A stretch of 64,000 bases of DNA. It comes from Candidatus Enterovibrio altilux. Lineage in GTDB: Bacteria; Pseudomonadota; Gammaproteobacteria; Enterobacterales; Vibrionaceae. Position 1 is the stretch's first letter. Each line of letters begins with the position of its first letter. The notes under the pieces are model-generated. The model had not been told where the DNA came from and did not search any database. It saw only the letters and a list, made by a program, of their open reading frames with translations. The translations under genes were made by a program, and so were the position numbers. The stretch spans positions 806,001 through 870,000 of the forward strand of contig NZ_CP020660.1 of assembly GCF_002381345.1 (NCBI RefSeq), read 5' to 3'. Shown one piece after another: positions 2,959 through 60,335 of the stretch.

Positions 2959-3968
2959 GGCTTTGTTTTTTAATTCAAGTTCAGATAGCAAATCCCAGCA
3001 TGATTCACTGTTAGACAATCACTTTCGTGTGAGGCATGCCTAGTCTTATCATCTTATATAACGCTTTTATCATGCCATAGGTTTCATTAATCTTAGCTAC
3101 GTGCTCCCTTAGACTCAATGTCCCCCAATAGGTTTTGACTTGAATGATTGCTGTTGCTGCTAGGAAAAGCTTAGGATAATCGGCTTTATTTTTAAAATAA
3201 GAGAACTAAATTTTGAATCAAAGCTCTAAACAATCAGGTCTATGAACAATCTTCGCTACAAAGTAACTAACTGGAAGCAGTATAATCAGACTTGAATCAA
3301 TCATAGCTCACTAACATTCTGGATTGATGAAGAAGCTATTTAACTCTGGAATCAGGCCGGATACTAATAGAAGACCTCGTTTATTTAGTAACTGAGTCAT
3401 TACAGCGGCTCCCCATGGTTAAACGCGTGTTTTTAATGCCATTGTGATGTCTACAACAATTCATTCATTCTGCTTTCAAACTTATTCAACTACCATTGGT
3501 ATACTGTCACTATTCGTGCATTAGCAAGTAATCCAAAATGGTTAACATCACGTTCAAGACAAAGAGTAAAGGAAGTATCCAGCACTTAACCATTCAGTCT
3601 GTCGGGTTCAAAATTTATAATAAAGGTAACTAAAAAGCAAAAAATATGGTACTGATGGAAAAAGAAGAGTCTGTCGCCAGTTACATTTAGCGGTCAGTTA
3701 CCAAAAATTATACGGTTCCAATCAGCATAAAAAAACGAAGGATAGTTACCATAAACGTTCCCTATCAAAGACAGCAATATTTCGAATCAAAAAACTACTG
3801 GGAGGGATAGTGCGCTTAAGAGAGAATAATGCTCAGATTAATGAGACTTACGCCATAATCAAAGTGTGAAGTAAGTTGCCGGGCTAGGTATGTCTCAAAC
3901 AAAAACGGGTGTTTAATCATTAATTATATTAAAATTGGCTATCTGAACTATAATTAGGAAACAAAACT
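2959..3968 (+). mobile_element. Chimeric IS5/IS903-group relic with inverted 3'-end arm
   Basis: Begins with the outer end GGCTTTGTTTTTTAATTC, the transposase 3' end in reverse orientation. It runs about 220 bp, then jumps at a TAAT-CGGCTTTATTT junction near 3178 into a forward copy that ends with ATTAGGAAACAAAACT. The forward part has an internal deletion after the WRKLHLAV-like segment and many stops. Both outer ends are therefore the same transposase-3' terminus. It truncates the tex relic. Confidence 0.8.
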
Positions 3969-10898: not shown

Positions 10899-13025
10899 AG
10901 CTTTGTTTCCTAAATCAGGGAACTAAGTTATCAATCTATGCTCTAAACAGTTAGGCTCACTTAAGCATTCAGGTCTATGAAAAAATTTTGCTACACAACA
11001 ACTCACTGGAAACAGTACAATCAAATTTAACCGATCGTGACTCACTAACACTCTGGATTGATGAAAAAGCCATTCAGTTATGAAATTAAACTAAGCAAAA
11101 TAATCATGAGATGCCTCATTTATTTAGCTACTTAGCCATTACACGGCTTTCATGGTTAAACGCGTATTTTCAAGGCCTTTAAAAAGTCTGCAAGGATGCA
11201 TTAATTTTATTTGTAAACTTACAAGCTACCACCGTCATGCCTTCATTATTCATATCTTAGCAAGCAAACTGAAACGGTTAACATTGCGTTCAAAATGAAA
11301 ATTAAAGGAACTATCCTGCACTGAACCATTGATTCTATGGAGCTAAAAGTCTACGGTGAGGGCGAATAGCTAGTAAAAAAGCATGCCGCTGATGGGAAAC
11401 AAGAAGTCTAACGCCAGTTACATTTAGCGGTAGATATAAATACACATGAGATCATTGCTGATGAGTTAAATGCATCACATGTGACTGATAAGAAAGTCGG
11501 CTTTGTTTCTTAATTTTAATTCAGATAGCCAATTTCAACATGATTAATGATTAAATAATTGTTTTTACTTTAGGCATACTTAGTAAAGTCCAGCTTATTT
11601 AACGCCTTTATCATAGCGTAAATTTTATTAATCTAGGCATTGTAATCTCTTAAGCTCACTGTGCCTTCTAAAAATTTTTTAATTCGTAACATTGTTTGAT
11701 ATCGTAAGCACCACCGATTAATATTTCATTAATTTTTTGGCAGGTCTATTTAAGCAAGTTAAGTAGTATTTTACCGTTTGCCACATTTGGTGCACTTAAC
11801 TCATCAGCAATGATTTCATGCACATTTATATCTAACGCTAAAGGTAATTTGCGTCAGACTCGCCATTTCCCATCAGTGCCATGCCTTCCTACTTGCCATT
11901 CGCCTTCACCCTAGACTTTTAGCTTCATAGAATCAATGATTAAATACTGGATGGTCCCTTTATTCTCCGCCTTGAACACGACGTTAATCATTTTGATTCG
12001 TTTGCTAATGCATAGTAGTGAGAACATGGCAACGACAATTAAGTAAGTTTGAAAATACATTTAATGAATCCTTGCAGACCTCTCCATGACATTGAGAATA
12101 CGCATTTAACCATGAAAGTCGTCGTAATGGCTAAGTCATTAAATAAATGAGGTCTCCCATGATTATCCTACTTAGTTTAATTTATAGCTAAATAACTTCT
12201 TCATCAACTCAGAATGTTAATGAGCTATGGTTAATGAAAGCTTGATTCTTCTGCTTCCAGTGAATTGTTTTTAACGCAGCTTGTTCATAGTACTAAGTAT
12301 TTGAGTGAACCTAAATATTTAGAGTATTAATTAAAATTTAAGTTCTCTGATTTAAAAAATAAAGCGGATGATAATAAACGTTCCCCAACACAAACAATAA
12401 TAGTTCGAATCAGAAACTGCTGGAAAGAACTTTAACTTTAAAGAATGACACTGCTCAGATTAGCGTAACCTCAACCATAATAAAAGCGTTAAATAAGCTG
12501 ACAGGATTAGGTGTGCATAACACGAAGCAATTCTTTCATAGTAATCATGTCAGGATTTGCCCTTTGAACTCGAATTAGGAAACAAAGCCAGTGAAATCCT
12601 ACCTAACTTGCTCAAACAGACTCGCCACAGAATCAATGGCATATCATCCGATGGTACTGACGACACCAGGCAATGTTACAAAACCATTCGTCTTAAATGA
12701 GTGGGTCTAATCATCTTACCAAGAAAAAAACAACTTTTTGAGAACAGGTCATCCGTGCAATGTAACAGGTTAGTTACTTGAAGTTATGCGATGCAAATCA
12801 GCATTAGAAAACGAGATATGGTTACCATCAACCTTCCCTATCAAAGAAGGCAATATTTTGAATCAAAAAACTATTCAAAGGAACATTGAACTTAAGGGAT
12901 CACAATGTTCAAATTAAGGATATCTACTCAATGATCAAAGTATTAAATCAGCTGACAGCACTAGGTATGCCCAGCACGAAAACTAATGCCTGATAGTTTA
13001 TTATTTTTGGGTTTGCTATCTGCAT
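10899..13025 (+). mobile_element. IS5/IS903-group relic (+) carrying a nested chimeric copy
   Basis: The host copy begins with GCTTTGTTTCCTAAATCAGG, runs forward to 11498 (the SASNVTD codons), is interrupted at 11499-12589, and resumes at GTGAAATCCTACCTAACTTG (the LPNLLKQT codons). It fades out near 13025 just before the hmp promoter. It is degenerate throughout. Confidence 0.8.
11499..12589 (-). mobile_element. Chimeric IS relic nested in another IS copy
   Basis: Reverse-oriented copy (start GGCTTTGTTTCTTAATTT) reaching its 5' terminus near 12360, then joined to a forward 3'-end arm of about 225 bp ending CGAATTAGGAAACAAAGCC. Read from the other strand it has the same arm, junction and body layout as the chimeric copies elsewhere. 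The host reading continues on both sides, and the flanks aagaaagtc and agtgaaatc both align to the host segment GGTGAAGTG. This fits the 9-bp target duplication typical of the IS903 group. Confidence 0.75.
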
Positions 13026-13079
13026 TTGCATGAAAAAACGATGTTTTCATGGTAACAAAAATATTTGCAGGTAATGTAC

Positions 13080-14335: not shown

Positions 14336-15508
14336 GACCATGTTACATAATTCGAGTTCAGATATCAAGTCCCAACATGATAAACTATTAAACGATCACT
14401 TTCATGTTAGGCATATTTGACCCTACCAGCTTATTTAATATTTTTATTATTGCATATGTTGGGCTAATCTGGCAATTGTAATCCCTTAGGCTCAATGTTC
14501 CTTCAAATAATTTTTTAACTCGAAACATTACTGTCTCTGATAAGGACAGGTTTATGACAACGTGCTTCATTTTCCAGCGCTGATTTGAATCGTATACTTT
14601 TCTGGTAACTGACCGTTAAATGACGTGGATGGCTTCATTCCGCAAAAGTTATCCTTTTTTTGGTAAAATGAATAGCATTGCCTGATACTTTATTGATTCT
14701 TAAACAGGTTTGTTTGAGTAAGTTAGGTAGCACTTTACCATCAGTCGCATTTAATAAACTTTGTTCAGCAATAATGATTTCATGCATATTGACATCTACT
14801 GCTACATGTAACTTGCGCCAGACTCTACATTTATCGTTCATATCATGCTTTTTTGCTTGCCATTCACCATCACCGTAGACTTTCAGAGCAGTAGAAGCAA
14901 TGGCTGGCGTTAACCGTTTTAGCTAGCTTGCTAACGCATAAATAATGAAGGTATGATAACGGCAGTTAAGCAAATTTAATTAATCCTTACCGACCTTTCA
15001 AAAGTTTTGAAAATATGAATATAACCATGAGGGCCGTCACAATCGTTAAGTCGTTAAATAAACGAGACCTTCCATGATTACCCTGCTTAATTTGATTCCA
15101 TAGCTGAATAGTTTTTTCATCAATCCAGAATGTTAGTGAGCCACAATTGATTAAAGCTTGATTATACTGTTTCGAGTTAGTTATTTTGTAGCGAAACTTA
15201 TTCATCAACTTGAACATTTAAGTGAGTTTAACTGTTTAAAATGTTAATTGAAAATTCGGCTTCATAATTTAGGAAATAAAATCGGTTACTATAAACCTTC
15301 TATCACAGAAACAGCAATGGACGAGTCAAAAAACTACTGGAAGGGACCTTGAGCCTAAGACATTACACTGCTTAAGTTAGCGACACTTACGTCATGATAA
15401 AAGTGTTAAATAAGCTGATAATGCTAGGTATTATTAACACGAAAGCGATTGTTGAATAGTACATCATGTTGGAATTTGTTATCTGAACGTGAAGTAGGAA
15501 GCAAAGCT
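14336..15508 (-). mobile_element. Chimeric IS5/IS903-group relic
   Basis: A reverse copy with both ends runs from TAATTCGAGTTCAG at the left to the 5' terminus near 15284. It is followed without a gap by a forward 3'-end arm ending GTAGGAAGCAAAGC. The junction (read on the minus strand, TAACCGATTTTATTTCC) matches the other chimeric copies. Fragments of transposase remain readable, for example FKLMNKFRYKITNSKQYNQA, but none forms a full gene. Confidence 0.8.
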
Positions 15509-17127: not shown

Positions 17128-18319
17128 GGCTGTGTTATATGATTCGAGTTCAGATAGCAAATCTCAATATGATGAACTATTAGATAATGGCTTGCATTTT
17201 AGGCATGCCTAGCCCAGTTAGCTTATGTATTGCTTTTATCATAGCGCAAGTTTCTCTAACTTAGATATTGTCATTTCTTAAGCTCCATGTCCCTCCAAGT
17301 CATTTTTTGACTCGAAACATTACCTTCTATGACAAAAAACATTTATGCTAACCATACCTCGTTTTCCATGACTGGTTGAAACTGCTCGTTTAATGAGAAC
17401 GGTTTCGCAACATTGTCTGGCATCGTATAAGCACCATCAGCTGATGTTTCATTAATTTTTCGGTCAGCTTGTTTGAGCAAGTTAGATAACACTTCACCGT
17501 CAGTCACATTTGATATACTGAACTCAGCAGCAATGATTTTATACATATTTGTATCGACTGCTAAATGTAACTTGCATCAGAATCATCATTTTCCATCAGT
17601 ACCATGCTTTTTTTACTTTTGATTTTTCTTCACAGTAGACTTTGAGTCCCGTAGAATCAATGGCTAAATGCTAGATACTTCCTTTATTCTTCGTCTTGAA
17701 CGTTACATTAACCGTTTGGGCTCGTTTGTTAATGCATGAATAGCGAAGACATGACAACGGTAGTGAAACAAGTTTACAAATAGAATTAACGAATTCTTGC
17801 GGACCGCTCAGTGGTATTGAAAATACGCATTTAACCATGAAAGCCGCCGTGCTGATGAAATCGCTAAGTAAACAGAGTCTTCCATAATTACCATGCTTAG
17901 TTTAATTTCATAGCCAAAGAGCCTTCCCATCGATCGAAAATATTAGTGAGACACGATTGATAAAAATAGGATTATACTGCGTTCCGTAGTTGTATTTTAG
18001 TGAAACTTATTCATAAACTTGAATATTTACGCGAGCCTAGCTGTTTAACAGCTATAGATTAAAAATTTAGGTTTCTGATCGAAAAAATAAAGGAAGTTAT
18101 TATAAACGTACCCTAGCAGAGGTAGCAATGATTAGAGCCAAAAAATTACTGGTAGAGACATTGGGCCTAAGAAATCACACAACTCAGATCAAAGAAACCT
18201 ACGTCATAATAAAAGTATTACATAAACTGACAGTGTTAGGTATGCTGAAAATAAAAGTAGTTATCAATCGTTAACCTTGTTGAAATTTGCTATCTGAACT
18301 CGAGTTAGGAAACACAGCC
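17128..18319 (-). mobile_element. Chimeric IS5/IS903-group relic
   Basis: Reverse copy from GGCTGTGTTATATGATTCGAG to a 5' terminus near 18092, followed by a forward 3'-end arm ending TTAGGAAACACAGCC. The arm carries the CTAGCAG variant shared by most chimeric arms, where simple copies have CTATCA. Confidence 0.8.
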
Positions 18320-18787: not shown

Positions 18788-20054
18788 CGCTTTGTTTCAT
18801 AATCCAAGTTCAGATAACAAATCCCAATATGATTCACTATTAAACGATCGTTTTTGTGTTAAACATACACAGTTCTATCAGCTTATTTATCATTTATAAT
18901 GGCATAGATTTAGCTAATTTGACATTCTGATCCCTTAGGATTAATGTCTTCTCAGTAATTTGTTTACTCAAGCTATGGCTGTCTCTGCTAGGGAACATTT
19001 ATGATAACCAGCTTTGTTTCCTAAACTAAAACATTAAACTTCAATCGATGCTCTAGGCCACTAGCCTCACTTAAATATTCAGGTTTATGAATAAGTTTCG
19101 TTAAAACACAACTAATTAAAGGTAGTATAATTTAATTTTTATCAATTGTGATTCACTAGTATTAGGCATTGATGAAGAAACTATTCAGCTATGGAATCAA
19201 ACTAAGCGGGGTAATCATAGGGTAAACCTCATTTATTTAGTAGCTGAGTTATTACGATGGTTTTAATGGCTCAATGCGTATTTTCAATGCCATTGAAAGA
19301 TTTGTAATGCCTCATTAATTCTGCTTTTTAACCTTGCTCAACCAGTGTTGTTATGCCCCCACTATTCATACATTAACAAGCGTACTAAAATAGCTAATGT
19401 TGCGTTCAAAATAAAGAATAAAGGAACCGTACAGCACTTAGCGGTTGGTGCTACCTAGTTCAAAGTCTACAGTTTCAGTAAATAAAAAATAAGAAAACAT
19501 AGTACGAATACAAAAGGCAAGTCTGGTGTAAGTTACATTTAGCGATAAATATACATACACATGAAATCATTGCTACTGAGTTAAGTGCATCAAATGTAAC
19601 TGCCGGTATAACGCTACCTTACTTACTTACTCAAACAGCCCGCCGTAGAATTCAGATGATAGAGCTTACAACACCGAATAATGTTACGAAACCGTTCGTA
19701 TTAAAAGAGCGGTTTCACTCATCCCACCAAGAAAAGAAACGCATTTGGAGAACGAAGTCATTCGCATAATTTAACTGTTAATTACCAGCCTTTATACGGT
19801 CCCAATCAGCATTAAAAAATAACGTATGCTTACCATAAACGTTCCCTATCAAAAACAGCAACGTTTCGAGTCAAAAGATTATTAGAAGGAACACTGAACC
19901 TAAGGCATCACAATGCTCATATTAGCGAAACCTACGCCATGATAAATGCATAAAATAATGTCAACAGGACTAAGTATGCCTAACACGCAAGTAATTCTCT
20001 AACAATTCATCCTGTTGGAATATTCTATCTAAACACGAATTAGGAAATAAAACC
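18788..20054 (+). mobile_element. Chimeric IS5/IS903-group relic, nearly full length
   Basis: An inverted 3'-end arm of about 225 bp opens with CGCTTTGTTTCATAATCC and carries the CTGCTAGG variant. It joins a nearly complete forward copy at ATAACC-AGCTTTGTTTCC near 19013. The copy ends GAATTAGGAAATAAAACC. At about 1.27 kb it is the clearest example of the chimeric form. Confidence 0.85.
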
Positions 20055-24268: not shown

Positions 24269-25139
24269 AACTTTATTTCTTCATTTGAGTTCAAATAACA
24301 AGTTCAAACCTTATTAACTATTCGATGATCAGTTGCATTTTAAGTATACTTAACTCTGTCATTTTATTTAATACTTTCATCAGGGCGTAGGTTTCACTAG
24401 CCTTAGCCTTGTACTCCCTTAGACTCAATGTTCCTCTCAGTAATTTTTTGACTCGAACCATTGCTGTCGCTGCTAGGGAACGCATATAGTAATTAGCTTT
24501 ATTCCCTCAATAAGGAACTAAATTTTTAGTCAATATTCTAAACAGTTAGGCTTACTTCAATATTCAGATCTATGAATAATCTCGACTGTAAAATAATTAA
24601 CTGGAAACAGTATAATCAAGTTTTAATCAGCCATGGCTCACTAATATTTTAGATTGATGAAGAAGCTATTCGGCTGTGGAATCAAATGAAGCAGGATAAT
24701 GCTAGAAACCGGCGTGTCTGGCACAAGTTACATTTAGCAGTCGGTGATGCTTACAGCACCAGGCAATGTTACGAAATTGTTAGCATTAAACAAGCAGTTC
24801 CACTCACCCCACTAAGAAAAGAATAACTTTGGAAAGCCAGGTCATTTGCATAATTTAACTGTTAATTACCAGAAGTTATATGATTCCAATCAGCATTGAA
24901 AAACAGATATGGTTACCATAAACGTTTCCTATCAAAGCCGGCAATGGTTTAAATCACAAAACTACTCGGCAGGGCATTAATCTTAAGAGATCACAATCCT
25001 CAGATCAGCGAAATCTATGCCCTGATAAAAGCGTTAAATAAGCTGGCAAGACTAGGTCTAATACCTAAAACGCAAAGGATCATCTAATAGTTAATAAGAT
25101 TAAAATTTGCTATCTGGACTTGAATTAGGAAATAAAGCC
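24269..25139 (+). mobile_element. Chimeric IS5/IS903-group relic with internal deletions
   Basis: The inverted 3'-end arm (24269 to about 24494) carries the CTGCTAGGG variant. It joins a forward copy at TAATTAGCTTTATTCCCTC. The body lacks most codons between NQMKQDN and RVWHKLHLAV and ends GAATTAGGAAATAAAGCC. It lies 12 bp from the coaD stop. Confidence 0.8.
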
Positions 25140-27167: not shown

Positions 27168-28500
27168 TCACTCTGGTTCTTAATGTGGATTCAGATAGCG
27201 TACCCCAATATAATTAACTATGAGATGATGACTTTTATTTGGGACATACCTAGCCCTGTCAGCTTATGTAACGCTTTAATCATGGTGTAAATTTCGTTAA
27301 TTTAAGCACTTTAATATCTTAGGTTCAATATCCCTCCCAGTAATTTTTGAACTCAACACCTCACCATCTCTGATAGAGAGCATTTATGATTACCATACCT
27401 CGCTTTTCAATGCTTACTTGAACCGTACAACTTCTGGTAATTGGCCGCTACATTACGCAGATAACCTAGTTCTTCAAAAGCTATGTCTTTTCTTGAGCTT
27501 GGCTTCCTCAATCAGGGAACTAAATTTTTTATCTATGCCCAAACAATAGCTAAGCTAACTTAAATATTCAGGTCTATAAATAAGCTTCGTTACACAACAA
27601 CTAATTGCAAGCAGTATAATCAAGCTTGAACCAATAAGGGTTAACTAATTTTTTGGATTGATGAAGAAGTGATTCAACTATGGAATCAAACTAAGCTGGG
27701 TAATTATAAAAAATTTCGTTTATTTAGCAACGTATCATTACGACGACTTTCATGGTTAAACGCGCATTTTCAATGCTATTGAGAGGTCTGTAAGTATTTA
27801 TTAGTTCTGTTTTTGCTTTGCTTAACTGCAGTTGTCATATCTCACTATTCATGCATTAAAAAGCGGGTCAAAATGGTTAACCCACGCGTTCAAGGCTAAG
27901 ACTAAAGACACCATCCAGTACTCAATTATTCATTTTATAGGGCCCAAAATTTACAGTGGCGGCGAATGACAAATAAAAAAGCATATCACTAATGGGAAAC
28001 GGCAAGTCTGGCGTAAGTTACATTGAACTGTAGATATAAAATACATGAAATTATTGCTGCTAAGTTAAGTGCATTAAGTATGACTGACGGTGAAGTACTA
28101 CCCAACTTACTCAAATAGACCCAACAATCAATAACCAAATATCAGCCGATGGCGCCTACGACACCAGATAATGTTACGAAACCGTTCGTATTAAACGAGC
28201 GGTTCCACTCATACCATCAAAAAAAGTGCAACTTTTAAAAAACAGGTTATCCGCGCAATTTAACGGTCAGTTACTAGCAGTTATACGATTCAAATCAGCA
28301 TTAAAAAACGCGGTATAGTTATCATAAATATTTTTTAGCAGAGACGGCAATATTCCGAGTCAAAAAAGTATTCGGAAGAACATTGAGCTTAAGAAATCAC
28401 AGTACCCACGTTAGTAAAACCTAGATCATAATAAAACGTTAAATAAACTGACATAATTAGGTATGCCTAAAATAAACGTGATCGTCTAATGCATCATTAC
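27168..28500 (+). mobile_element. IS5/IS903-group relic with a longer inverted arm
   Basis: An inverted 3'-end arm of about 325 bp joins a nearly complete forward copy near 27496 (GCTTGGCTTCCTCAATCAGG). The arm is longer and the junction different from the common chimeric form, so this is an independent inverted arrangement. The 3' terminus of the body is truncated about 10 bp before the pyrE stop. Confidence 0.75.
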
Positions 28501-35190: not shown

Positions 35191-35349
35191 GGCTTTGTTT
35201 TCTAATTCACGCTCAGATAGCAAATCCCAATATGATTCACTGTTAAACGAAAGTTTGTATTTTGGGCATATCCAAACTTGTCAGTTTATTTAACGCTTTT
35301 ATCATTACGTAGGTTTTCCAGTCTGGGTATTGTAATCCCTTAGGTTTGA
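35191..35349 (-). mobile_element. 3'-end IS relic fused to the hemE reading frame
   Basis: Begins with a near-perfect end, GGCTTTGTTTTCTAATTC, and stops inside hemE at 35349. Its transposase strand and frame match hemE, so the last 14 hemE codons and its stop are IS sequence (compare LRDYN in both). Confidence 0.85.
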
Positions 35350-36456
35350 TGGACAGCACATTCTATCCATTGATGAATCAGCATAACTTCGCTTGTGGTA
35401 TGGCCTAGAAAGCTCATGCACAGCATCAACAAACACACCTACGTTTTCAAGTGAAACATCAAGGTGAATACCATGGCCAAGGTTAAATACATGACCATTA
35501 TCCGTCCCAAACCCTTCAAGAATTGTACCTACTTCCTGACAAATAAGCTCGGGTGATGCATATAATATAGATGGATCCATATTGCCTTGTAGCGCAACTT
35601 TATCACCTATACGACACTTAGCTTCTGCAATGTCAATTGTCCAATCTAGACCTACACCATCACAACCTGTCGCTGCAATTTTTTCTAACCACATACTGCC
35701 GTTTTTAGTAAACAAAGTGACTGGTACACAGTGACCTTCGTTTTCACGAGTCAAACCATCAATAATTTTATGCATGTATTGCAGCGATAAATCATTGTAA
35801 CCACGCGGTGTTAGCACGCCACCCCATGTATCAAATACTATCAAAGCTTGTGCGCCAGCTTTAATTTGGGCATTCAAGTACTCGATCACACTATCGGCTA
35901 ATTTATCCAATAAAAGGTGAAGCGTCTGAGAATCAGTATACATCATCTTTTTAATTTTAGTGAATGCTTTAGAGCTACCGCCTTCCACCATATAAGTAGC
36001 CAATGTCCAAGGACTACCAGAGAAACCAATCAATGGCACCTGACCTTCCAAATTTTTACGAATAGTGCGTACAGTATTCATCACGTACTGCAGCGCATCT
36101 TCTGGATCAGGGATACCAATTTTATCCACGTCTGCCTTACAAGTAATAGGCCTCTCAAACTTAGGACCTTCTCCAGTTTTAAAATATAGACCAAGTCCCA
36201 TCGCATCGGGAATAGTTAGGATGTCTGAAAATAAAATAGCTGCATCAAGATTAAAGCGACGTAGCGGTTGAAGAGTCACTTCGCATGCCAATTCTGCATT
36301 CTTACATAATGACATGAAATCGCCAGCTTCCGCTCGTATTGCTTTATATTCAGGTAAATAACGACCAGCCTGACGCATCATCCATACCGGCGTGTATTCA
36401 ACCGACTCTTTCAACAAAGCGCGCAAGTAGCAATTATTTTTTAATTTTATCATCAT
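35305..36456 (-). CDS. hemE: Uroporphyrinogen decarboxylase with an IS-derived C-terminal tail
   Basis: Converts uroporphyrinogen III to coproporphyrinogen III in heme synthesis. The family body is complete: [63 protein letters not shown]-like [16 protein letters not shown] and FNLGHGIH are all present up to the usual end [10 protein letters not shown]. The total is 383 residues against about 354-355 in relatives. The extra 28 residues are about 14 of uncertain origin plus 14 ([14 protein letters not shown]) translated in frame from an IS relic that supplies the stop codon. The enzyme is probably functional, since the active site is distant from the C-terminus. Confidence 0.95.
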
Positions 36457-40660: not shown

Positions 40661-40788
40661 TCTTAACAAAAAGCAAAACAAAAAGGACTTCAACCAATAA
40701 TATAAAAAGCCTGTATCTTAATCAACTGAACTATTGCTGGATATTCATTCAATACATGTTTATTCATACATATATTTATAATTTAGAG

Positions 40789-40905
40789 CCTGGCAATGTC
40801 TTACTCTCACATGGGGAAACCCCACACTACCATCAGCGCTGTTACGTTTCACTTCTGAGTTCGGCATGGAATCAGGTGGGTCCATAACGCTATAGTTGCC
40901 AAGCA
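40789..40905 (-). rRNA. rrf: 5S ribosomal RNA
   Basis: On the minus strand it begins TGCTTGGCAACTATAGCG and ends GACATTGCCAGGC. In between is the highly conserved 5S core with ACCTGATTCCATGCCGAACT, then CAGAAGTGAAAC, and GGGGTTTCCCC of helix IV. Stem I pairs (GCTTGGCAA with TTGCCAGGC). Length about 117 nt. It is the third surviving RNA of a rRNA operon; no 23S gene lies upstream of it. Confidence 0.95.
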
Positions 40906-41204
40906 AATTTTGTAGTATTTCACTCATTAATTTTCACTTTGGATACGATGATGTTCGTCTCCCTAGTTCAGCTTATTAGTAAAACACACATAGACTATTT
41001 TTGTGTATGCTTAAATTTTTTAGATATTGTATGAGTAAAACTCATACGTAATCAATTTTAATATCTATTTACGTTATCATAGGGATGATTTATTCAAAGC
41101 TTACTTAGCATTTAAATACTTTCTATGCTTATTAATTCTAAACTTAATTACTAAATAATATTATTTCTGTAGAATACATTCACTTTATGAAGATACTGAA
41201 GAAG
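40906..41204. other. AT-rich spacer where 23S rRNA would be expected
   Basis: Only 299 bp separate tRNA-Ala from 5S, where a 23S gene of about 2.9 kb normally lies. No 23S sequence is recognisable. A short inverted repeat, ATGAGTAAAACTCAT, is present. It probably represents fused internal spacers. Confidence 0.5.
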
Positions 41205-41280
41205 TGGTGGAGCTATGCGGGATCGAACCGCAGACCTCCTGCGTGCAAGGCAGGCGCTCTCCCAGCTGAGCTATAACCCC
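41205..41280 (-). tRNA. tRNA-Ala (anticodon TGC)
   Basis: Minus-strand 76-nt cloverleaf: GGGGTTATAGCTCAGCTGGG at the 5' side, anticodon loop CTTGCAC, T arm GGTTCGATCCC, 3' end with encoded CCA (AGCTCCACCA). The acceptor stem pairs with one or two G-U positions. It is the standard spacer tRNA of a gammaproteobacterial rrn operon. Confidence 0.97.
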
Positions 41281-41325
41281 ATCATCAGTACTTAGTAATA
41301 GCCAACATTATCTAGAAAACAATGT

Positions 41326-41402
41326 TGGTGGGTCTGAGTGGACTTGAACCACCGACCTCACCCTTATCAGGGGTACGCTCTAACCGCCTGAGCTACAGAC
41401 CC
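41326..41402 (-). tRNA. tRNA-Ile (anticodon GAT)
   Basis: Minus-strand 77-nt cloverleaf with acceptor stem GGGTCTG/CAGACCC, D arm AGCTCAGGCGGTTAGAGC, anticodon loop CTGATAA, T arm GGTTCAAGTCC and encoded CCA. It is upstream of tRNA-Ala by 45 bp, in the order found in rrn spacers. Confidence 0.97.
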
Positions 41403-42294
41403 ACTAAGTCTTTAGTTTTTTAATCTAAACAATATACATTAATAGTATTTTACGGAAATAATATAACTATAAGCTATCTATACTGAGGTAAACGTTTATT
41501 CATAAGTTAAGTTATTTATTTTAGAATAGTCCACCTTATATTGTGACTGATTATACATGCTAAGTTTCAATATAAATTAATTATTTTTATAGGCTTTGAG
41601 CTAGGCAGCTAGGCTAAGGCATGTTTTTTTAAAATTATACAATAATGCAACAATTTAACAAAATTTTATCTTAACTTCAGTTAACTAATGATAGTGACAG
41701 TCCCTCTGCAGTTTTTGATATTATCCACTGCTAAATAAGAAGAAGGTTTGTACTCGTTTAAGAACTTAACGATAGTGTAACACATGAATTGAATGGTATT
41801 CATGTATTAATTTATCTTAAACTACAAAATAATAAACTAAAATTTCTCTCAACTTTTTTTATTTTATTATATCTGATTAACTAATAATTATTATTTAAGT
41901 AAGTTACTACTCGTATATCTATAACTTAATTTGCGCGTATTAAGTTCGCCATCATATAAAAGCTATTTAATTATAAGTTTATTGTTGCCAGAAGGTAATA
42001 CTATTGTGTATTGCATAAATTTTGTTTCAAAATAAAGCTACATTAACCATATAATAAATTTTTAATCAATTTTTTTATTTACAATAGATAACTATTAATA
42101 AAAATTATATTATTAAAGAACATGACTATAGAAGGATCATTCTTACTACTAGAGATACATTATCCATTGTTTCGCAATCAAGTCAAGAAAAAAATTATAA
42201 TATTTGCAGCGTTGCTTTCACAACCTTTAAAATGTCATGGTAACTCCTTTTAACCACGATCAACACTGAACTTCCTATTAAAGTGGCTTTATTG
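41403..42294. other. AT-rich gene-free region where 16S rRNA would be expected
   Basis: About 890 bp of very AT-rich DNA with no open reading frame, no 16S sequence (the anti-Shine-Dalgarno end is not found) and no recognisable relic. It would hold the promoter of the tRNA-Ile/tRNA-Ala/5S unit, but no clear promoter pair was found. Confidence 0.45.
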
Positions 42295-43544
42295 TCTAAT
42301 TTGAGTTCAGGTAGCAAATTACAACATGATTCACTATTAGACAATCGCTTTCATGTTAGGCATACTTAGTCTTGTCAACTTATTGAACGTTTTCACTATG
42401 ACGTCAATTTCACTAGTCTGAGTTATGTGATCCCGTAGACTCAATCTTCCTACCAGTAGTTTTTTGACTCGAACCATTGCTGTCCCTGCTATTATAGTAA
42501 CCGGCTTGATTGCCTAAATCAAGGAACGAAATTTTCAATCAACACTCTAAATAATTAGACTCACTTAAATATTAAAGTCTATGAACAAGCTTCCCTACAA
42601 AACAACTAACTGAATGCAGTATAATAAAGCTTTCATCAATCGTCGCTCACTAACATTTTGGATTGGTAAAAAAGCCATTCAGCTATGGAATCAAACTAAG
42701 CAGGGTCATCATGGAAGACTGCGTTTATTTGGCGCTTTAGCCATTACGACGGTCTGCATGGTTCAATGCGTATTTTTAATGCCACGAAAAGGTCTGCAAG
42801 ATTCATTAATTCTGCTTTCAAACTTGCTCAACTGCCATTGTCATGCCATCACGATTCATGCACTAGCAAGCAAACCAAAACGGTTAACGTTTCATTCAAT
42901 ATAAAGAATAAAGAAAAGACCTAGCACTTAGTCATGGATTCTACAGGACTCATAGTGCACGGTGAAGGATAATGGTAGTAAACAAAGTATGACATTGATG
43001 GGAAACGGCTAGTTTGGTGGAAGTTACATTTAGTAGTAGATAAACATACGCATGAATTCATTGCTGCTGAGTTAAGTGCATTAAATATGACTGACGGTGA
43101 AAGGCTATCTAGCTTACTCAGACAGACCCACCGAAAAATCAATGAAATATTAGCCGATAGTGCTAGCGGCACCAGATAATGTCACAAAACCATGCACATT
43201 AAACGGGCGGTTCCACTCATACCACCAATAAAGAAGCAATGTTTGAAGACGAGACGAGTAATTTAGCGGTCAGTTAGCAGAAGTCAAATGGTTCAAATCA
43301 GCCTTGGAAAAGAGGTATGTTTACCATAAGCATTCTCTATCAAAAACTGCAATGTTCCGAGTCCAAAAATTACTCAGAAAGGCATTGCATTTAAGAGATC
43401 ATAATACTCATATTAGCGAGACTTATACCATGATAAAAGCGTTAAATAAGCTGGCAAGACTAGGTATGCCTATAACGAAAACGATTATCTAATAATGAAT
43501 CCTAACATGATTCACTATCTGAACTTGAATTAAGAAACAGAGCC
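42295..43544 (+). mobile_element. Chimeric IS5/IS903-group relic with longest transposase remnant
   Basis: The inverted 3'-end arm (GGCTTTATTGTCTAATTTG, CTGCTA variant) joins a complete forward copy at TAACC-GGCTTGATTGCC near 42503. The body holds the best transposase remnant: 96 codons at 42614-42904 with NRRSLTFWIGKKAIQLWNQT. Later codons (EISADS..., RVQKLLRKALHLRDHN) are in other frames. It ends GAATTAAGAAACAGAGCC. Confidence 0.85.
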
Positions 43545-47839: not shown

Positions 47840-49091
47840 GGCCTTGGTTTCTAATTAGAGTTCAAATAGTAAATTTCAACATAATTCACTATTAAATAAT
47901 TACTTTTATTTTAGAAATATCTACTCAATTAGCTTATTTAACACTTTTATCATGGCAACGGTTTTATTAATATGAGTTGTGTGATTCCTTAGGTTCAATA
48001 TACTTTTGAGTAACGCTTTGACTCAAACCATTGCTTTCTCTGCTAGAGAACGTTTATGACAATCGGCTTTATTTACTAAGTTAGGTAGCTCAATTTTTAA
48101 TCAATGTTCTAAACAGTTAAGCTCACTTAAATATTCAGGTCTATTAAGAATCTCCGCCACAAAACAGCTAATTGGAAGCAGTATAATCAAGCTTTAATCA
48201 ATCAGGGCTCACTAACATTTTGTATTACTGAAAAAACTATTCAGCTATAAATCAAACTAAAAAAAGTGATCGTAGAAAACCTCGTTTATTTAGCCACGTA
48301 GTCATTACAATGACCTTCATCATTAAATAGATATTTTCAATGCCATAAAAAATTTATAATAATTCATTAATTTTCTTTTCAAACTTATTCAACTGCCATT
48401 GTGATGCCCGAACGACTCATACATTAGCAAGCAAGCCAAAACGATTAATGTCACCGTTCAAGACGAAGGATAAAGGAAACATCCAGCACTTACTCATTGA
48501 TTTTGCGGGGTTCAAAATCTACGATGAAGAAGAATAGCAAATAAAAAAGCATAGTGCTGATGGAAAGCGGCGAGTCTGGCGTAAATTACATTTAGTGATA
48601 GATATAAATACGCATGAAATCAGTTCTGCTGAGTTAAGTGCATCAAATGTAACTAACGGTGAAGTACGACCTAATTTACTCAAACAGACCAGCCGAAAAA
48701 TCAATAAAATATCAGCCGATAATGTTTACGACACTAGACAATGTTACGAAACCGTTCATATTAAACAAACGGTTCTTCTCATCCCGCAAAAAAAGGTCAT
48801 CCGCATAATTTAACGATCAATTACCAGAAGCTATACGATTCAAATCAATATTGAAAATATGAAATATAATTACCATAAACGTTTCCAATGAAAAACGACA
48901 ATGTGTCAAATCAAAACATTACTGGGAGGGACATTCAGCTTAAGAGATCATACTGCTCAGATTAGCGAAACTTACGCCATAATGAACGTGGTAGATAAGC
49001 TGACAAACGCGGTATACCTAAAGTAAAAATAATTGTTTCATCATTAAGCATTTTGAGTTTACTACCTGAACTTAAATTAAAAAATAGAACC
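47840..49091 (+). mobile_element. Chimeric IS5/IS903-group relic
   Basis: Inverted arm (start GGCCTTGGTTTCTAATTAG, CTGCTAGAG variant) joins a forward copy at ACAATC-GGCTTTATTTACT near 48063. The body is nearly complete but full of stops and ends TTAAATTAAAAAATAGAACC. Confidence 0.8.
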
Positions 49092-50720: not shown

Positions 50721-51840
50721 GGCTTTGTTTCCTAATTCGAGTTTCAATGACAAATCCCAACATTACTCACTATTAGACAACCACTTTCGTGTTAAGCATG
50801 CCTAGTCTTATCAGCTTATTTAATGCTTTTATCATAGCGTAGGTTTCACTAATATGAGTTGTGCAATCCTTTAGGCTTAATATTCTTTCGAGTAGTTTTT
50901 TGATTTAAATCATTGTTATCTTCATTAAAAATACTTACAATAACTGGCTTTATTTCCTAAACCATGGAGCTAAATTTTCAATCAACACTCTAAATAGCTA
51001 GGCTCACTAACATTCCAGATTAATAACGAAGCTATTCAGCTATGGAATCAAACTAAGCCGAGTAATAATGGAAGATCTAGTTTATTTAACGACTTAGCCA
51101 TGACGACGACCCTCATGATTAAATGCGTATTTACAATGCCATTGAAAAATTTGCAAGGATTAATTAATTCATTTTGTTTGCAAACTTGCTCAACGGTCAT
51201 TGCTATGCCCTCACTATCCATGCAGTAGCAAGCAAACCAAAACGATTAACGTCAGTTCAAGGCGAAGAGCAAATGAACCACCCAACACTGGACTATTGAT
51301 TTTATCAAGCTCAAAATTTACGATAGAGGAAAATAAGAAGTAAAAAAGTATAGCACTGATAAGAAACAGTAAATTTGACGCAAGTTACATTTAACGATAG
51401 ATATAAATGTGCATTAAATCATTGCTGCTTAATTCAGTGCATCAAATGTGACTCACGGTAAAGTGCTACCTAACTTACTCAAACAGACCCCCCGCCGCAA
51501 AATTAATGAAATATTAGCCAATAGTGCTTACGGTGCCCAATGTTACGAAACTGTTCGGATTAAACGAGCAGTTACCAGAAGTTATACAGTTCCAATCAGC
51601 ATTGAAAAATGAGGTATAATTACCATAATAAATGTATCCTATCAAAATGGCAATGTATCGAGTCAAAAAATCTTTCGGAGGAACGTTGAGCTTAAAAAAT
51701 TATAATTTTTATTGAGCGAAACTTACGTTATGATAAAAGCACTAAAATAAGCTGATCGAAAGCTAGATGCGTCGAACACAAAAGTGATTATTTAATCATG
51801 TTAGGATTTGCTATCTAAACTTGAATTAGGAAACAAATCG
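50721..51840 (+). mobile_element. Chimeric IS5/IS903-group relic
   Basis: Inverted 3'-end arm with an intact end, GGCTTTGTTTCCTAATTCGAG, joined to a forward copy at ATAACT-GGCTTTATTTCC near 50946. The body lacks the MNKLRYKTTNW segment and ends GAATTAGGAAACAAATC. Confidence 0.8.
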
Positions 51841-55728: not shown

Positions 55729-57262
55729 TGATTTAGTTTCCTAGATCAGGAAACTAAATCAATCCACACTGTAAGCACCTAATTTTACTTGAATATTTAA
55801 ATTTATGAACAAGCTCCGCTACAAGATAACCAACTGAAAGCAGTATAATTAAATTTTAATCAATCTTGCCTCACTAATATTCTAGATTAATGCAAAAATT
55901 ATTCAGCTATGGAATCAAACTCAGCAAAGTAATCATGGATCGTCTCGTTTATTTCACAACTTAGCCATTACGACAGCACTCATGATCAAACGCATATTTT
56001 CAATGCCATTAGGCTTTGTTTTTTAATTCAAATTCAGATAGCAAATTTCAGCATAATTAACGATTAATCAATTGCTTTTTTAGGCATGCCTAGCTCGATC
56101 AGCTTCTTTAACGCTTTTATCATGGAGCAAGTCTCACTAATCTGAGCATGGTAATCCCATAAGTTCAATGTTCCTCCAAGGAGTTTTGACTCGACACATT
56201 GCCCACTTTGATAAATAACATTTATGGTTACTATTCCTCACTTTTCCATGCATATTTAAATCGTATAACTCTTAACAACTGACCGCTAAATGGCGCAGAT
56301 GACCTCATTTCCAGAAAGTTGCTCCTTTTTTAGTAAGACGAATAAAAATCGTTCGTTTAATACGAACAGTCTCGTAACATTATCTCATTTCGTAAGCACC
56401 ATCGGCTAGTATTTCATTGATTTTTCAGTGTGTCTATTTAAGCAAATTAAGTAGCACTTAACCGTCAGTCACATTCGACGTATTTAACTCAGGACAATGA
56501 TTTCATGCGTGTTTATATCTACCGCTAAATGTAACTGACGCCAAACTCATAATTTTCCACCAATATCATGTTTTTTACTTTGATTCTCCTTCACCGTATA
56601 CTGTAAGCCCCGTAAAATCCATGGTTAAGAACTGGATGCTTCCTATAATATTCGTTATTGAACGAAATGTTACCCGTTTTCGTTTGTTTACTAACGCATG
56701 AATAGTGAGGGCATGGCCACGGCAGGCAGTTGAACAAGTTTGAAAACAAAATTAATTAATCCTTGCGGACCTCTCAATGGCATGAATAATGCGCGTTTAA
56801 CTATAAGTGCTGTCGTAATAGCTAAGTCGCTAAATAAACGTGGGTTCCCATGATTATCCTGCTGAGTTTGATTACACAGTTGAATGACTTCTTCATTCAT
56901 CCACAATGTTAATAAACCATGACTGATTAAAATTTGATTATACTACTTCCAGTTAATTATTTGGTAACGAAACTTATTCATAGGCCTGAATACTAGTATG
57001 ATCCTAGCTATTTAAAGCATAAATTAGTAATTGGGTTTCTTTATTAAAAAATAAAACTTTGTCATGCTCTCATTAGTCATGCATGAATAAGCGAACCGAA
57101 ACGGTTAACGTAGCGTTCAAAACACAGAATAAAGAAATTATCCAGCTCTTAGCCACTAATTTCATGTAAATTTATATTGACTGCTAGATGTAACTTACAT
57201 CAAACTTATCATTTACAATCAGTATCATGCTCTCTTACTTTACTTTTCATTCGCTTTCCCAT
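55729..57262. mobile_element. Forward IS relic interrupted by a complete simple reverse copy
   Basis: Forward 5' part 55729-56011 and its continuation 57059-57167 (HYSCISKRTETVN to IQLLATN region) flank a reverse copy with both ends, 56012-57058 (GGCTTTGTTTTTTAATTC to AAATAAAACT). A further reverse scrap lies at 57168-57262. The reverse copy is the simple form, about 1047 bp, without an inverted arm. Confidence 0.75.
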
Positions 57263-59319: not shown

Positions 59320-60335
59320 AGCTTTGTTTCCTAATTTGAGTTCAAATAATAAATTCCACATGATTCACTATGAGACATTTATTTTAGGCATACCTAGCCC
59401 TGTCAACTTATTTAACGCTTTTATCAGAGTGTAGATTTTTAATTTGAGCATTGTGATCTCTGAAGCTCAATGTCCCTTCGAGAAGTCTTTGGGCTCGAAA
59501 CATTGCCGCCTCTGATAGAGAACGTTTATGGTAACCATACTTTCTTTTGCAATGCCTACTTGAACTGTATAACTACTGGTAACTGATCGCTAAATGGCAC
59601 GGATAGCCTCGTTCCCAATAAGTTGCTCCTTTTCTTCATGAATGAATGGAACCACTCGTTTAATACGAACGGTTTCGTAACATTGTCCAGTGTTGTAAGC
59701 ACTATCATATGATATTTCATTGATTCTTCGGCAGGTCTGTTTGAGCAAGTTAGGTAGGACTTTACCGACAGTTACATCTGACTCACTTAACTCAACAGTA
59801 ATAGTTGCATACGTATTTATCTCTACCGCTAAATGTAAATTGCGCCAGACTCACTGTTTTCCATCAGTGCAATATTTTTTTTACTTTACATTAGCCTTTA
59901 CCGTAGGATCAATGACTAAGTGTTGGATGGTTTCTTTATCCTTCGCTTTGAACGTGACGTTAACCATTGGGGCTTGCTTGCTAATGCATTAATATTGCGA
60001 CCATAACAACGACAATTGAGCAAATTTAAAAGCAGAATTAATGAATCCTTGCGGACCTCTCAATGGTATTGAAAATACGAGTTTAACCATGAAGGCCATC
60101 ATCATGACTAAGTCGCTCTAAATAAACTAGGTCTCCCATAATTACCCTGCTTAGTTTGATTCCATAGCTGAATAACTTATGCATCAATCCAGAGTGCCAG
60201 TGAGCCACTCTGGATTATACTACTTCCAGTTAATTTTTTTGCAGCGAAGCTCATCCATAGACCTGAATATCTAAGTGAGCTTAGCTATTTAGAGAAAAAT
60301 TGATAATTTAGTTCCCTAGTTTAAAAAGTAAAGCC
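59320..60335 (-). mobile_element. Simple full-length IS5/IS903-group relic (reference copy)
   Basis: A 1016-bp copy with both ends: AGCTTTGTTTCCTAATTTGAG and TTTAAAAAGTAAAGCC. Flanks ctttttttg and tctttttgg may be a 9-bp target duplication, though a T run weakens this. The transposase (readable in pieces, for example CLTSTAKCKL-type shadows on the other strand) has numerous stops. The consensus of all copies gives an IS903-like protein with DSTGLKVYGEGEW, SADGAYDTRQCYE and the ETAMFRVKKLLGGTLSLRD region, the DDE parts. Its right end supplies the stop codon of the neighbouring GT9 gene. Confidence 0.85.

Follow-up and report, generated by a model that had tools for sequence, protein, structure and literature searches.

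The window analysed here, a stretch of 64,000 nucleotides, covers bases 806001-870000 of contig 1 (1,604,691 bases) in an assembly of 2,143,356 bp and 4 contigs. At positions 18788-20054 it contains an insertion sequence (IS) that is preceded by an inverted IS 3' end. This inverted piece, termed the arm, lies on the minus strand at 18788-19009, with its outer right terminus at 18788, and is of the arm type at three marker sites (GAG). The body, a whole IS on the plus strand, occupies 19010-20054; its left terminus at 19010 is buried and its right terminus at 20054 forms the other outer end. A BLAST search of the element against the window returned many copies that are mutually about 70% identical. 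The arm and the end of the body of this element are about 71% identical with gaps included, and for this reason an ungapped repeat finder is blind to the arm.

We located the IS left termini of the window independently of the list given in a first-pass annotation. There are 25 of them, nine with an inverted arm, 14 in simple copies and two with other inverted neighbours. The first-pass annotation had listed nine copies of one architecture; all nine were recovered and no further chimera was found in the window. Its coordinates agree with our alignments except for one start, which lies at 42285 and not at 42295. Besides 18788-20054, five chimeras are on the plus strand: 2959-3968 (arm 2959-3181, body from 3182, internal deletion), 24269-25139 (arm 24269-24494, body from 24495, internal deletion), 42285-43544 (arm 42285-42502, body 42503-43544), 47840-49091 (arm 47840-48064, body 48065-49091) and 50721-51840 (arm 50721-50945, body from 50946, internal deletion). 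The three on the minus strand are 14336-15508 (arm 15284-15508, body 15283 down to 14336), 17128-18319 (arm 18095-18319, body 18094 down to 17128) and 11499-12589 (arm 12367-12589, body 12366 down to 11499). The last of these splits a simple copy on the plus strand (10899-13039), so that the earlier statement of a multiplication in both orientations, and even within another copy, holds. Complete simple copies without an arm are present on the minus strand at 56012-57058, within a fragment of a simple copy into which it inserted, and at 59320-60335. At 27171-28490 (plus strand) an inverted 3' piece of about 327 bp adjoins an IS left terminus, which is an independent join with a different junction.

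Two side observations concern genes close to IS fragments. The hemE frame (35305-36456, minus strand) ends within an IS fragment (35191-35351), and its last codons are apparently IS-derived. At 40788-41402 the genes for 5S rRNA, tRNA-Ala and tRNA-Ile are grouped near IS fragments with no 16S or 23S rRNA match alongside; this is probably the remnant of a ribosomal RNA operon. For 'Ca. Enterovibrio luxaltus' CC26 the accessible part of the genome paper gives one rRNA operon and one additional 5S gene (PMC6020299).

Anatomy and abundance of the chimera

A majority consensus of 13 nearly full copies yields an element of 1277 bp, composed of a 226-bp arm and a 1051-bp IS. In the consensus the arm is the reverse complement of the IS 3' end, and it is joined upstream of the IS left terminus with single-base precision at GGTAACC/GGCTTTATTT, where the sequence to the right of the slash is the left terminus of the 1051-bp IS. 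Both outer ends of the chimera are right ends and the left end lies inside, with imperfect terminal inverted repeats of 226 bp, as described by the first-pass annotation (identical outer ends, a buried 5' terminus and an arm of about 220 bp joined at the same point). While simple copies are bounded by one left and one right end, the chimera is not. Neither is it a MITE or another transposase-less derivative, since its consensus contains the whole transposase gene, except for a frequent stop at codon 245. A promoter created by the junction was sought by eye, and nothing convincing was seen.

The consensus encodes a DDE transposase of the IS5 family (NCBIfam NF033579 at 356 bits; Pfam PF13737 and PF01609). 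The parent IS in its simple form is 1051 bp long and has terminal inverted repeats of the GGCTTTGTT type, as have the relatives L071-L076. We regard the element as IS903-like and place it in the IS903 group of the IS5 family, a group name that rests on known features of IS903. It shares with this group the transposase family, the length and the terminal repeats, and possibly a 9-bp target duplication, the signal of which is weak here; the duplication is perfect in the relative L076. The two right ends, the buried left end and the long imperfect repeats distinguish the chimera from the group.

For counts beyond the window we used a sample consisting of the window and 40 stretches of 20 kb, together 864 kb or 40% of the genome; the IS family makes up 28.2% of this sampled DNA. 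Of its 212 left termini, 95 belong to chimeras and 104 to simple copies, and 13 have an inverted neighbour of another kind. The earlier claim that chimeras outnumber the simple form is therefore not correct, neither here nor in the window (9 versus 14 and 2). In 85 of the 95 chimeras the arm and the gap sum to one and the same junction, with nothing between arm and body, and in alignments anchored at the junction the arm measures exactly 226 bp in 79 of them. The first-pass annotation had noted that most arms read CTGCTAG where bodies differ. At this site, body position 847 (CTGCTAG in the arm, CTGATAG in the body), G is found in 81% of 95 arm rows and T in 82% of 59 chimera-body rows, gaps aside, which bears this out. 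In the own genome, all 40 scored candidates for sequence across the junction match over it (991 candidates at first look). When up to 3 mismatches are allowed, a 16-bp junction pattern has 192 matches in the whole genome, compared to 9 for the reversed control pattern, and a chance origin of the junction is thereby excluded. The same criterion picks up 70 of the 95 sampled chimeras and 3 of the 104 simple termini. By extrapolation, on which the sample and the 16-mer route agree, the whole genome would contain about 240 chimeras and a somewhat larger number of simple copies.

Among 121 genomes of the bacterial family, the own genome included, the junction pattern with up to 2 mismatches stands out in the own genome (116 versus 1 for the control). 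Counts are raised in G013 (31 versus 2), where the places differ from one another, and in G046 (18 versus 10), where the match in the single locus that was read comes from a simple IS whose flank matches by chance. A query of 314 bp spanning the junction had matches in two of 17 other genomes of the genus. Those in G046 end at the junction; in G014 (2.6 Mb) two matches pass it by 12 bp, both in colinear stretches of a different IS that is about 56-59% identical at both matches, and there is no chimera there. The stretches L093-L107 of G014, a second reduced genome, are rich in decayed copies of another IS5-like element, most of which share 56-65% identity with the consensus; this agrees with the separate expansions described in the literature. 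The exact junction 22-mer had no match in a genome-contig collection, whose searched set possibly leaves out the own genome.

A probable dominant founder and the likely recurrence of the structure

The common junction, derived markers on both of its sides and arms that resemble their own body no more than other bodies support one dominant founder of the main chimera. The founder markers are 847G, 862G and CAA at 911-913 in the arm, and 7A, 18A, 32T, 39A and 42A in the body. None of them is present in five related elements, which mostly carry the base of the simple copies at these sites. Where arm and body differ, or chimeric and simple left ends, the difference is in most cases derived relative to these five elements; position 855 is an exception, as the arm has the base of the relatives there. 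Among 87 exact-junction chimeras, 80 have an arm of the arm type, 6 of the body type and 1 is undecided; their left ends are of the chimera type in 73 and of the simple type in 6, with 2 undecided and 6 not typed. Under a stricter rule the chimera-type left end is seen in 68 of the 87 chimeras and in 5 of 92 simple copies. Copies with other junctions have simple-type left ends in 5 of 6 typed cases (inexact class) and in 12 of 13 (the 'near' class). An arm has a mean identity of 0.691 to its own body and of 0.690 to the bodies of other chimeras (28 pairs; permutation P 0.19), which agrees with the earlier proposal that the arm came from a different copy. Arms closest to their own body and a variable junction had been named in advance as the patterns that would speak against one founder; both comparisons were run, and neither pattern appeared. 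Arm-type 3' ends occur in about 14 of 66 simple copies, an approximate number as some ends were assigned by chaining broken pieces, as one would expect had a copy of that sort donated the arm. The 6 of 87 body-type arms and the 6 of 87 simple-type left ends call for exchange or for a second origin at that very base. The body markers cluster in the first 105 bp, and relaxed constraint on the buried leader could be another cause of this clustering.

When each left terminus is joined to its upstream neighbour, 95 units with two right ends and an intact outer right end are obtained. Their arms measure 226-232 bp in 76 cases, 205-208 bp in five and 126-127 bp in three, and single units have arms of 154, 192, 263, 303, 310, 327, 340, 588, 660, 819 and 827 bp. 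The small sets with other junctions suggest that the two-right-end structure arose several times and that one founder came to dominate. The claim that the chimera arose once is hence supported for the dominant set and would not extend to these others. The opposite arrangement is also found: 30 of 231 non-arm 3' termini are followed by an inverted IS piece, and 17 of these 30 have an intact outer left end and form left-left units. Their positions are scattered over the element, with 400 used three times (two with an intact end) and 114 and 603 twice. Both kinds of unit arise at about equally many positions, and only units with two right ends form sets of more than three. Tentatively, and as a possibility that we do not favour, pairs of right ends could be the preferred substrate of the transposase, so that self-nested inverted inserts would give both kinds of unit and chiefly the right-right kind would multiply. 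If true, an IS family would evolve a new, fitter transposable unit by self-insertion and without new sequence. The contrast rests on few families and luck may be its cause. As a separate observation, IS neighbours at 3' termini in the sample are inverted in 30 cases and in the same orientation in 7; same-orientation nests may have been lost by recombination between direct repeats.

We consider it probable that a nested insertion, transposition of the resulting unit and later exchange between copies together explain these data. The ancestor would have belonged to the IS5 family, resembled IS903 and measured 1051 bp, with one DDE transposase and the terminal repeats GGCTTTGTTTCCTAA. A copy A would have inserted in inverted orientation into a copy B at position 826 of B. 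To judge from the anatomy, the left end of A would then abut the last 226 bp of B, giving a unit with the right ends of B and A and a buried left end. The founder locus, a chimera followed by the remainder of the host copy, is absent from the sampled 40% of the genome. The transposase would have paired the two outer right ends and mobilised the 1277-bp unit repeatedly, a movement to which complete copies in different flanks, a 9-bp signal in a few of them and the chimera nested in a simple copy point. The buried left end would rarely have been reused, and a derived G-to-A change at repeat position 7 may disable it. The derived A is present in 74 of 86 chimeras and 32 of 92 simple copies; it might explain the silence of the buried left end, if this position is as important as we suppose. 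Chimeras would later have exchanged sequence with simple copies, the arm may have swapped its outer part with the 3' end of its own body by inversion between the long repeats, as the fading of the founder markers suggests, and the copies would then have decayed.

Probable movement and exchange, and decay of the copies

The flanks were compared at seven duplication lengths. At 9 bp, three chimeras out of 59 and three simple copies out of 66 match in at least 7 of 9 bases (permutation P 0.0055 for either class), while the other 56 and 63 have no good duplication. Lengths of 6, 7 and 10-12 bp gave no excess, and at 8 bp 1 of 66 simple copies (P 0.044) and no chimera matched. The mean flank match is 0.324 in chimeras versus 0.294 after shuffling (z 1.6, n=59) and 0.352 versus 0.301 in simple copies (z 2.8). 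Smaller, earlier sets of copies gave no target-duplication signal; it is present in the larger set only. In the nested case, chimera 11499-12589, the host copy resumes 9 bp back and 5 of the 9 bases of the two repeats still agree. Complete ends on both sides of the chimera, this nested case and the 9-bp signal would be consistent with paired use of the outer ends. Six of seven related simple elements examined (L071-L075 and L080) are without a 9-bp duplication, some despite open transposase frames. For IS5 and other IS the absence of duplications has been ascribed to inter-copy recombination, adjacent deletions, decay and rearrangement-linked insertion, according to the part of the report available (PMC11708052).

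Chimeras and simple copies are most differentiated at the start of the body: the value is 0.068 over its first 50 bp, 0.022 over the following 50 and 0.005-0.010 as far as 300 bp, past which it is mostly below 0.008. Over the 100 bp next to the junction the arms, too, are distinct from simple copies, and over their last 50 bp they hardly are; a difference at the terminal base is an edge effect of arm excision. On trees, the label chimera/simple changes 19 times versus 58 after shuffling for positions 1-105 and 29 versus 40 for 106-325, and farther out no less often than in shuffles (30 versus 32 for 326-600, then 26 versus 25 and 40 versus 40). The label arm/body changes 34 versus 69 times in the inner arm and 58 versus 69 times in the outer arm, where 1 of 200 shuffles is as low, and mixing of arm and body is accordingly incomplete there. 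Distal polymorphisms, for example at 468, 653, 1001 and 1004 and including some transversions, are common to simple and chimeric copies. As the markers fade within about 100-300 bp of the junction, copies have probably exchanged sequence after founding; recombination between copies would produce both the fading and the shared distal polymorphisms. The fading also suggests that the outer parts of arm and body may have changed places through inversion between the long repeats of one element.

The copies are decayed. The mean divergence from the consensus is 16-18%, C-to-T and G-to-A changes are found at about 23% of C and G positions, and every own-genome protein match listed has internal stops. 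Over body positions 106-825 the divergence is 15.7% in chimeras (63 copies) versus 18.4% in simple copies (48 copies; P 1.8e-6), which suggests that chimeras spread later on average.

Other explanations of the abundance of the chimera can be weighed against these data. Position 826 might attract insertions, so that many copies each took an inverted insert independently and no mobile chimera existed. IS903 favours palindromic targets, the region TATGGTTACCATA is nearly palindromic, and the sets at 205-208 and 126 show that such joins recur. However, none of 46 IS joins at a 3' terminus falls at positions 815-850, and 826 is therefore no general insertion hotspot; no sampled chimera is followed by the rest of its host copy, and the exact-junction copies have derived markers in common on both sides. 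We regard independent insertions as very improbable. Gene conversion in place, by which arm and junction were copied onto simple copies and the number of chimeras would reflect conversion more than transposition, fits the fading of the founder markers and the distal polymorphisms common to both forms. Yet it must add 226 bp without homology in the flank, and it accounts poorly for the lower divergence of the chimeras, for the 9-bp signal outside their outer ends and for the nested chimera with its 9-bp host repeat. Its probability is low in our view, if higher than that of the insertion hotspot.

A question of a different kind is whether the chimera was partly non-autonomous and moved by the transposase of other copies. 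Among the codons listed, codon 245 (tryptophan, body 811-813) reads as a stop in 23 of 38 chimera bodies; in 31 of 63 the codon at 850, which we take to be the glutamate of the Y-R-E-K motif, is AAA or AAG. The stop is equally common in the simple copies listed (20 of 30), in which the codon at 850 is changed in 19 of 57, and G-to-A decay averages about 23% per site; TGG is kept in 10 of the 38 chimera bodies. The transposase of IS903 acts mainly in cis, which also argues against movement by other copies, and we think dependence of this kind unlikely, less so than conversion in place. Both changes are commoner than average decay and are possibly alleles that were present while copies still moved. 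We prefer nested insertion followed by transposition of the unit.

Relation to known systems and meaning

Composite transposons with inverted IS arms are known from the Tn903 and Tn10 type. The chimera has in common with them two inverted IS, like outer ends that may be used together and an inner end that is still present. In contrast to them it has no cargo and no gap, one IS is cut to 226 bp and the unit itself has reached high copy number. There is no passenger DNA, as arm and body abut. The chimera is composite-transposon logic without cargo. In Wolbachia, ISWpi1 is inverted by recombination between its terminal inverted repeats, as the available part of that study describes (PMC3004938). 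There too, recombination between the ends of one IS copy leads to a loss of asymmetry of the ends; however, the repeats are 23 bp long and the copy flips in place, whereas here a long arm of another copy was gained and the product multiplied.

'Ca. Enterovibrio luxaltus' CC26 lives as a symbiont in the light organ of the anglerfish C. couesii (Hendry et al. 2018, PMC6020299). In the accessible sections of that paper 672 IS5-family transposase genes are reported, all called pseudogenes and either 'missing the inverted-repeat regions' or truncated. These sections describe the IS5 expansion and no chimera, whereas in the genome analysed here terminal repeats are recognisable in both forms. The parts available of two further papers (PMC6773444 and PMC3196728) added nothing on chimeras. 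No chimeric IS of this kind is named in the titles and abstract openings of the literature searched, a body of text that most subscription journals lie outside.

As a natural experiment, the chimera bears on the question of which ends a transposase is able to use. In a host-dependent genome, a fusion with like outer ends has become about as numerous as its parent. A large share of the broken transposase loci in the published IS census of the symbiont can be read anew as belonging to one larger element with long inverted repeats, and the copies hold traces of sequence exchange among repeats within one bacterial genome.
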